Part shown: in pieces, positions 352 through 2,346 of the stretch
Numbering within the stretch: the first letter of the stretch is position 1
Layout: each line of letters opens with the position of its first letter
Assembly (NCBI RefSeq): GCF_900112395.1
Contig: NZ_FOLN01000002.1
Span: 186,001 to 250,000 of the forward strand
Length of the DNA: 64,000 nucleotides
Direction of reading: 5' to 3'
Source of the DNA: Algibacter lectus
Lineage (GTDB): Bacteria > Bacteroidota > Bacteroidia > Flavobacteriales > Flavobacteriaceae
Notes under the pieces: generated by a model
Told to the model about the DNA's origin: nothing
Database searches by the model: none
What the model saw: only the letters and a program-made list of their open reading frames with translations
Translations under genes and position numbers: made by a program

Positions 352-359
352 TATATTTG
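352..359 (+). promoter_or_regulatory. -7 promoter box (TATATTTG) for the RNA-RT locus
   Basis: TATATTTG matches the Bacteroidota -7 consensus TAnnTTTG exactly. Transcription would begin 4-7 bases downstream, at about 363-366, which is the first base of the long-range stem of the candidate RNA. No clear TTTG -33 box is seen at the expected distance. Confidence 0.55.
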
Positions 360-363
360 ATAT

Positions 364-572
364 TAAGGCGTAGGCAAGAGTGAAGTTTACTTCATTATAT
401 TGAACAGGTATAAGAATTTATTCTTTAGGTGTTAGTAGCATTAACTATTTTTAGTTATAATCGAAGTCACTGAAACAATTTACGAGCCTAATAATCCTGA
501 TGCTTATGGTCTCTGCTAATTTGTATATTGGCAATGTATCTCAATCAAATTGAATACTACGCTTACGCCTTA
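364..572 (+). ncRNA. candidate structured RNA upstream of the reverse transcriptase
   Basis: TAAGGCGTAGGC (364-375) pairs with GCTTACGCCTTA (561-572) as a 12-bp stem with one G-U pair, enclosing about 185 nt. Inside are compact hairpins: 379-396 (7-bp stem, UUUA loop), 412-425 (5-bp stem, UUUA loop), 442-457 (TAACTA/TAGTTA, UUUU loop), and 518-551 (10 bp with a 3-nt bulge). The 5' end coincides with the start predicted from the TATATTTG box. The 3' end lies 7 bases before the RT ATG. Structured RNAs immediately upstream of an RT are known for retrons and for DRT2 and DRT9. This one is inferred from sequence only. All three forward frames contain stops. Confidence 0.6.
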
Positions 573-579
573 TTTTAAG

Positions 580-2346
580 ATGAAAAAGTTAGAAAATTAT
601 TATACTAATTCTGCGATAATTAAAATGCTCTGTAAACATAGAGCAGGAATATCTCATAAAAGACATAAGAAACATATGTCTAGAGATATTAGTCTTCATA
701 ATAGAACTAATAAAATTATTATTTCAAATAAAGATTTAGATTTTAAAACTATTCAACCTTTATTTCCTACACGTAGAAATTGGAAAAAATTAAGCCAAAA
801 AGAAAGATTAGACCCAAATAGACTAACTAATAGTTTAGAGAAAAATCAAATGAGGCTATGGAAGTCATATAAATTAGAAAAATATCTTGTTAATTTTAAA
901 AATAAAACGCCTGAAGATTGGTATATAAAATTATTGAAGTATTGTGATGAAATTAGAAAAAAAGTAAATGATATCTCAAAAGATAAATATATACTTAATA
1001 AACCTTCAATATTTCCTTTACCTAAATCTAATGAAAAAGGTAACTATATTTATAGACCAATTGCGAAATACACTTTAGAAGATAAAATAATTACTTCTTT
1101 ATTCTCTAAATACCTTACAATCAATTTTGATAGTGTTTTTTTAGATTGTTCATATGCTTTTAGAGCTAGAAAAAATGGTGCTGTACCAAATCACCACGAT
1201 TCAATTATTGAAATTTTAAAGTATCGAAAAAAGAATAAAAAAATTTGGGTCTCAGAATGTGATATACAAAAGTTTTTTGATACAGTTCAACATACACATC
1301 TGATTAAAATTTTTAATGAAACTATAAATGAATTATCTTTAAAAGGAATAAAAATATCTTCTAATGCAATTAAGTTGTTTTCATTGTTTTTAGATTCCTA
1401 TTCTTTTAATAATGATGTGCTTACTAAAAATAATACTTCAAAATATTTTAAAAAGAGTGGAGTGCCCGTTGGTCAATTTGGCTGGGTCGAAAAAGAACTA
1501 GTAGCTAATTATTCAAAAGATTATATTAAAGATTATAAAATAGGTGTACCACAAGGAAATGCTGTTTCTTGCTTTATTGCAAACTTGATACTGAATAATA
1601 TTGATAAAGCTGTAAAAGAAGTTGATAAAGACATTTTATATGTAAGGTATTGTGATGATATGGTCTTAGCACATAAAGATGTTAATATTTGTAAAAAAGC
1701 TTTAGAGGTTTATAAAGAAGGAATTAAAGAGAATTATCTACTTTATCACGAACCAAAAAGTTTTAAAAACTATAAAAATTCTGCAAATGACTTTTGGAAA
1801 GTTAAATCAAAAGAGCCATATTTTTTTGGAAATAAATATGTAGATGAGAAAAATATTCCTTGGCTTTCTTTTGTAGGTTATCAAATAAATTATAAAGGAG
1901 AATTAAAAGTTAGAAAAAGTTCTATAAAAAAAGAAATTAGTAAACAAATTGAAGAAACACAAAAGATTTTAGTTTCTTTAGGTCTAGATAAAGACAGGAA
2001 ATTACCTGATATTAATAAATATTCAAGAAAAACAGTTAATCAAATTGTTTTTAGCTTACAACAACGTTTAATATCAATGTCAGTTGGAAGGGTTACTATA
2101 TATAATTATAATAAAAACCTAGAACAAGGACTTTGTTGGACTAATGGCTTTCATTTACTGAATGAAAATAAAATTGTTTTAAAGCAATTAAAAGAATTAG
2201 ATAAAAGAAGAGAACAGCAGATTCTATACTTGAAAAGAATTATTTCACATTTAGATATAGAAACAAATGATGTAGATGATTTACCTAAATATATGGAAGA
2301 ATTATATTTTGGAGTTCCTTATAGCTATTTCAACCATATTAAGTAA
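580..2346 (+). CDS. reverse transcriptase, defence-associated/unknown-group (DRT/UG) type
   Basis: A 588-residue RNA-directed DNA polymerase if started at ATG 580. A TTG at 550 lies inside the candidate RNA stem and was not chosen. Palm motifs are complete: RPIAKYTLEDKI (RT1), YAFRARKNG (RT2), CDIQKFFDTV with catalytic D228, GVPQGNAVS (Q325-G326), YVRYCDD with catalytic D359/D360, and FVGYQINYKGELKVR (RT6/7 region). About 145 residues precede the palm and about 140 follow it. No maturase, endonuclease, nitrilase or protease domain is recognisable. QGNAVS argues against a diversity-generating RT, and the length argues against a retron RT. The gene is visibly richer in A+T than the housekeeping genes to the right. 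Anti-phage function is inferred from the family. Confidence 0.8.
   Translation: MKKLENYYTNSAIIKMLCKHRAGISHKRHKKHMSRDISLHNRTNKIIISNKDLDFKTIQPLFPTRRNWKKLSQKERLDPNRLTNSLEKNQMRLWKSYKLEKYLVNFKNKTPEDWYIKLLKYCDEIRKKVNDISKDKYILNKPSIFPLPKSNEKGNYIYRPIAKYTLEDKIITSLFSKYLTINFDSVFLDCSYAFRARKNGAVPNHHDSIIEILKYRKKNKKIWVSECDIQKFFDTVQHTHLIKIFNETINELSLKGIKISSNAIKLFSLFLDSYSFNNDVLTKNNTSKYFKKSGVPVGQFGWVEKELVANYSKDYIKDYKIGVPQGNAVSCFIANLILNNIDKAVKEVDKDILYVRYCDDMVLAHKDVNICKKALEVYKEGIKENYLLYHEPKSFKNYKNSANDFWKVKSKEPYFFGNKYVDEKNIPWLSFVGYQINYKGELKVRKSSIKKEISKQIEETQKILVSLGLDKDRKLPDINKYSRKTVNQIVFSLQQRLISMSVGRVTIYNYNKNLEQGLCWTNGFHLLNENKIVLKQLKELDKRREQQILYLKRIISHLDIETNDVDDLPKYMEELYFGVPYSYFNHIK

Follow-up and report, generated by a model that had tools for sequence, protein, structure and literature searches.

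A conserved structured RNA upstream of a UG39 reverse transcriptase in Algibacter lectus, a candidate template

The UG39 locus and its relatives

The window, a stretch of 64,000 nucleotides of the Algibacter lectus genome (contig NZ_FOLN01000002.1, positions 186,001 to 250,000), opens with the first 106 codons of a divergent VirE_N (BT4734-like)-PriCT2 gene on the reverse strand (1–319), followed by a structured RNA (364–572) and the gene of a UG39 reverse transcriptase (RT) of 588 aa (580–2346); these last two and all further features given below lie on the forward strand. The RT was assigned by the PADLOC profile RT_UG39 (PDLC03778, E 1.8e−174, profile positions 2–537 of 541), which reached 579.7 bits as against 97 for Drt9, the next PADLOC profile (E 2.7e−28), and 61.9 for UG17. 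Pfam RVT_1 was matched as well (5.1e−17), and the group II intron, Drt3a, Drt2 and retron RT matches found with other libraries were all below cut-off. The YCDD active site lies at 1648–1659 and a C-terminal Ser582-Tyr583 at 2323–2328; all 22 aligned UG39 RTs that reach the end carry the C-terminal motif [PA][YF]SY[YF].

Profiles were also run on 23 UG39 RTs, all of which were matched by Drt9, Drt2 and UG17, and 22 by Drt3a. The general RT and Cas1-associated profiles and those of the uncharacterised types UG4, UG23 and UG19 matched 23/23 as well, and this equal frequency, together with the 100 bits obtained with the group II intron RT model (cut-off 300), leaves a kinship with Class 2 systems unproved. 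A group II intron was set aside on the score of that model, though a comparison with the sequences of solved structures put a group II-type RT (5hhj, 7.2e−13) first, ahead of the DRT9 RT (9ioa/9nlv, 8.5e−12). The AlphaFold model of the RT (three sequences) had a pLDDT of 32. Elsewhere in the same genome (L006, C29:78918–78961), 44 bases match RT positions 1675–1718 with 86% identity, perhaps as part of another RT gene.

The full partner gene encodes 320 aa and reaches about window position −640 in its own genome. The full protein was matched by PADLOC RTasVirE-PriCT2 (PDLC03818, E 1.2e−109) and by Pfam BT4734-like_N (5.1e−26); PriCT_2 was below the cut-off here (0.0016) and passes it in the partner of locus L011. 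The motifs DID, SPS..G.K and LD.SG.D..RLC were kept in all of the 19 aligned partners; the partner is predicted to be an archaeo-eukaryotic primase-polymerase (AEP). Motif II of AEPs is usually sxH, which makes the K in SPS..G.K unusual. DID corresponds to AEP motif I (PMC5862659). DbCAPP, a VirE_N protein, is reported to be both DNA polymerase and primase, with a polymerase activity that is abolished by mutation of D86 and D88 (PMC8211822); by motif and place, rather than by an alignment of the two proteins, these residues would correspond to D85 and D87 of the partner. CAPP_B/DbCAPP, a CRISPR-associated primase-polymerase, likewise consists of a VirE_N catalytic domain with a small C-terminal part (337 aa vs. 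320 here), but CAPP_B is adjoined by CRISPR genes and the partner by a UG39 RT.

UG39 RTs are rare: matches with E 1e−60 or better were obtained in 2/397 genomes of the family, 5/395 of the phylum and 8/395 of the order and, by the same criterion, in 10/173 and 6/299 genomes of two genera and in 1/128 and 5/163 genomes of other sets, all of these sets overlapping. No relative was found in phage records and viral contigs, and one was found on plasmids. The study covered 25 loci, including those of Wenyingzhuangia gilva (L001), Mesonia oceanica (L002) and a Thiospirochaeta plasmid (L015). In a midpoint-rooted tree of 24 RTs (without L015), three groups, each on one side of a branch, were distinguished, i.e., clade A with seven loci including the window (support 100/99), clade B with 15 (100/100) and clade C with L004 and L010 (99/98). 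The partner gene lies beside the RT in 23/25 loci; it is divergent in clade A, it lies upstream on the same strand in clade B, where the 5' arm of the RNA's closing stem overlaps or comes after its end, and it was looked for and not found in the two loci of clade C. In both of these, an RNA-like fold is present and UUCGA is repeated near the RNA 3' end. Interrupted RT frames were seen in L015 (split CDS, on the plasmid) and in L010 and L028 (in-frame stops), which suggests decay. The one genome to which L021 and L019 belong has, besides a full UG39 RT, a second, 5'-truncated copy by a transposase-like ORF (by eye).

The structured RNA and its conservation

The RNA is delimited by a closing stem (P1) of 12 bp, including one G-U, between a 5' arm at 364–375 (TAAGGCGTAGGC) and a 3' arm at 561–572 (GCTTACGCCTTA), with a U-rich stretch after the latter. 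Four nucleotides upstream of P1 lies a promoter-type box, TATATTTG (352–359), of the form TAnnTTTG, the Bacteroidota promoter consensus, and the RT start codon (ATG, 580) follows 7 nt after the stem. A sequence-only reading of this DNA had described the same stem, the same box and the same distance to the ATG, all of which were confirmed when the sequence was read again. From this layout, the start and the 3' end of the RNA would be placed at the borders of P1. TAnnTTTG occurs 100 times in the window against 111 expected, so the pattern alone is not above chance. In 7/7 clade-A loci, however, a TAnATTTG box stands 3–4 nt upstream of the assigned stem start; among the 18 loci outside clade A, TAnnTTTG was absent from the 60 nt upstream of the stem except in L018–L020, where it is found 40 nt away. 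As clades B and C have no box beside the stem, the RNA there would need processing.

The fold of 361–576 has an energy of −50.3 kcal/mol with P1 present (z −2.56, 1/200 shuffles equally good). The sequence-only reading had placed four compact hairpins within the stem, two of them with a UUUA loop; all four can be drawn, but both UUUA hairpins are missing from the minimum free energy (MFE) structure. The first, SL-A (380–395), appears in the centroid structure, and the second, SL-B (412–425), was drawn from the sequence. With arms picked by eye, SL-A is retained with changed pairs in L009, L025 and L026 and in weaker form in L024, and analogues of SL-B were seen by eye in L009 and L026. A small hairpin AACUA/UAGUU (443–456) is part of the MFE structure and reads AACAA/UUGUU in the alignment with L001, i.e., with one compensatory pair. 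It is followed by SL-C (484–513, arms picked by eye), whose loop carries a tract of 7–8 U in L009, L024 and L026 that is absent in the window, and by a boundary-type hairpin (515–532), the sequence of which differs in L001 and L002, where an alternative stem can be drawn. Of a possible extra hairpin at 536–557, the alignment shows the upper half retained in L001 and a broken form in L002.

P1 of the window scored 28.8, a value matched by 0/100 mononucleotide shuffles and above the best equivalent helix upstream of any of the window's 49 other ORFs with a length of 150 aa or more (maximum 27.8), which served as controls. Across the UG39 loci, the helix search was confined to the 45 nt that precede the RT and yields some helix at every locus; in 24/25 cases the best one was the long-range stem of the folds or of the reading by eye, closing 3–24 nt ahead of the RT. 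For L004, the helix search and the MFE structure give different stems. Per-locus scores were reached by 0 to 23 of 100 shuffles (25 loci), so many of the stems are non-significant when taken singly. Compared as groups, the 15 lineages had a mean helix score of 25.0 vs. 17.5 for the 49 control ORFs (Mann-Whitney p = 6.4e−8), with 20/25 loci above the 90th percentile of the controls and six above their maximum. Folding energy was lower than that of shuffled sequences in 15/15 lineages, with z from −0.77 to −4.18, several of these being modest.

A covarying stem in homologous loci, on which the sequence-only reading had made its RNA depend, was found in clade A: 95.9% of the cells of P1 are paired, both sides have changed in 5/11 pairs, and the covariation score of 0.398 compares with 0.137 for shuffled alignments (reached by 0/500) and with at most 0.238 for slid versions of the stem. 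The count of further pair types was not above that of the shuffles (204/500). In clade B1 (eight loci, five helices), 8/24 pairs were doubly changed vs. 2.5 expected (0/500), with variation on one side only in the closing stem. An RNA model built from these eight loci recovered all of them in a search of 197,741 bases, and its best match outside the training set fell at the right place in L025, a clade-A locus, with a weak E of 0.074; no match was found to the window RNA, to the other clade-A RNAs, or in the rest of clade B, clade C and L015. In a swapped-arm test, P1 was equalled in 0/20000 permutations, SL-A by none of the 120 orders except the true one and SL-C by 4/120, but the arms had been picked for pairing and the test is thereby biased, so that the argument rests on the covariation in clades A and B1 and on the comparison with control ORFs. 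Some bias attaches to these as well, as the structures counted were taken from the same alignments and the window is closely related to L001 and L002.

Sequence conservation was followed in L001 and L002. Positions 364–500 are identical at 133/137 bases (97.1%) in L001 and equally in L002, and the whole of 364–572 at 92.6% (L001) and 84.1% (L002), the latter value being lower because of a 17-base insertion. The corresponding identities are 81.4–82.4% for the RT gene (third codon positions 65.6% and 68.4%), 78.6–86.2% for the partner gene and 69–75% for the gap before the box. With the covariation, the conservation above that of silent sites, the box in 7/7 clade-A loci and the stem in 24/25 loci, a functional structured RNA belonging to the UG39 RT is well supported. 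DNA similarity to L001 and L002 extends from about −630 to 2346 (query −9999 to 8000), i.e., over partner, RNA and RT and no further, and the cassette therefore probably moves as a unit. Directly before the RT of L002, the 3' arm of the stem seems to be partly duplicated, with 17 extra bases.

The template question and other readings of the RNA

We infer by analogy, as the best inference available, that the RNA is the template of the UG39 RT, because the profiles of DRT9, DRT10 (UG17), DRT2 and DRT3a are among the best DRT matches of this enzyme. The reading that we consider probable is thus that of a noncoding RNA (ncRNA) of about 209 nt at 364–572, with a promoter of its own, which would be the RNA partner of a Class 2-like UG39 RT and be copied by it. 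The sequence-only reading had gone further and spoken of the template RNA of a new RT system: the structured RNA of the RT holds by covariation and conservation and a role as template is probable by analogy, but "new system" is too strong, since RT_UG39 and the VirE-PriCT2 partner are both catalogued in PADLOC.

A speculative template candidate of the A-B-A' form, CAAU-GUAUCU-CAAU, was picked at 532–545 within a conserved stretch, with the boundary-type hairpin directly upstream; hairpins upstream of template candidates were also seen by eye in several other loci. Positions 531–552 are identical at 22/22 bases in L001 and 21/22 in L002, but the hairpin region 508–532 at only 68–71%, as expected for a template beside a boundary hairpin. 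The A-B-A' test in the window gave p = 0.38 with a 45-nt stretch and 0.71 with 35 nt, CAAU was not the longest direct repeat found there, and the mean probability of being unpaired was 0.33 for bases 533–546 vs. 0.44 for the interior, i.e., they are more paired. Among the 17 loci, L004 (AUUCG repeated) and L022 (AGUAUC repeated) each reached p = 0.001, and the sum test gave p = 0.002 with 45-nt stretches and 0.68 with 35-nt ones, a dependence on stretch length that arises from the L004 and L022 repeats lying partly beyond the 35-nt stretch. The search for a template motif common to the whole family was negative: with one mismatch tolerated, no 7-mer occurred in more than seven of 13 lineages, which 94/100 shuffled sets equalled, and in the 17 loci including close relatives TCAGTAT reached 11, equalled by 5/100.

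The structure could instead act in cis, as a 5' leader that serves autoregulation or stability of the RT mRNA and is left uncopied. The end of the structure 3–24 nt before the RT start in 24/25 loci is leader-like, and an RT that binds its own leader would also give rise to covariation and conservation; as related DRTs use an RNA at the equivalent place as scaffold and template, and 364–500 is conserved base by base, beyond the pairs, we hold the leader to be unlikely. A product of the DRT9 kind, for which the U tract in the SL-C loop of L009, L024 and L026 would template poly-dA, gains from the fact that the DRT9 template is a conserved U tract. No such tract was found at that place in the window, L001, L002 or clade B, so it is not a general template, and a homopolymer maker appears very improbable. 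For retrons, too, a long-range stem is drawn just upstream of the RT, and retron RT profiles do match weakly. The scores, however, are 38.2 bits for RT_II-A, the best retron profile of PADLOC, and 45.3 bits against a cut-off of 235 for that of NCBIfam, far from the 579.7 bits of UG39, and no Rfam 15 family was matched by the window RNA (E up to 5) or by the corresponding stretches of ten relatives (E up to 0.5), though this does not by itself prove the absence of such an RNA; an msr-msd RNA that is partly copied, with the RT-DNA joined to it, can hardly be expected here.

Relation to known systems and proposed working

For the RNA as template, the closest parallels are found among Class 2 systems, in which a structured ncRNA beside the RT is reported to be copied repeatedly in part (PMC12632851, PMC13174585, PMC12483538); copying of an ncRNA is described for DRT9, DRT10 (UG17), DRT2 and DRT3a (PMC12632851, PMC13174585). 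Class 2 defence RTs are said to make unusual DNA from small RNA templates, and a link has been drawn between them and the origin of telomerase (PMC12632851). DRT10 resembles the UG39 locus in combining an RT with an ncRNA (137 nt in Eco3; PMC12632851) whose large stem-loop bears four smaller ones, in a conserved C-terminal Ser/Tyr, in having one partner gene, and in that its UG17 profile matches all 23 UG39 RTs. It differs in its SLATT partner, upstream of whose gene the ncRNA lies (PMC12632851), the partner here being VirE_N-PriCT2, and in its A-B-A' template, a form that was significant in 2/17 of our loci, the window not among them. DRT9 (UG28) is the best named DRT profile after UG39, has its ncRNA immediately upstream of the RT and primes from a C-terminal Tyr, to which the C-terminal Ser-Tyr of UG39 may be compared, but its U tract is universal, none being so here, and the partner here is primase-like (PMC12483538). 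An RNA-templated RT paired with a second polymerase is known from DRT3 (PMC13174585) and an RT fused to a primase-polymerase from DRT7 (PMC13213688), from which the present locus differs in that a separate VirE_N-type protein, a predicted primase-polymerase, is encoded next to the RNA.

No description of the UG39 RNA was found among the matches listed for the open-access literature, which did not include the survey defining the UG types, and the UG39 RT, a catalogued type, was not found to be characterised in the searchable papers. The main text of the DRT10 preprint (PMC12632851) mentions neither VirE nor PriCT nor UG numbers starting with 3. With its boundaries and structure now given, the conserved UG39 RNA adds a further Class 2-like candidate type, and the locus appears to bring together an RT that works from an RNA template and a predicted primase-polymerase encoded by a gene of its own.

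In the working that we propose, the RNA would be transcribed from its own promoter and fold round the RT as a scaffold, and a short segment towards the 3' end, after the boundary hairpin, would be copied repeatedly into repetitive single-stranded cDNA. Priming is reported to start from the C-terminal Tyr in DRT9 and from a C-terminal Ser or Tyr in DRT10 (PMC12483538, PMC12632851), and would here probably start from the hydroxyl of the conserved C-terminal Ser-Tyr. VirE_N-PriCT2 may then act on the cDNA, either in making a second strand or in sensing. A more specific form, in which tandem-repeat ssDNA would be made from a telomerase-like A-B-A' RNA template in a protein-primed reaction, with VirE_N priming the second strand where present, is tentative and seems rather doubtful; the predicted repeat units differ by locus (AGATACATTG in the window, GATACT in L022, CGAAT in L004).

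The likely purpose of such a system would be phage defence. The cassette of the window is flanked by a response-regulator-like ORF (by eye) and a short ORF without family match. Some relatives have defence-type genes as neighbours: in a scan of eight proteins besides the partner, HEC-01A was found in L013 (E 2.1e−135), and an OLD-like ATPase gene lies beside the RT of L004.
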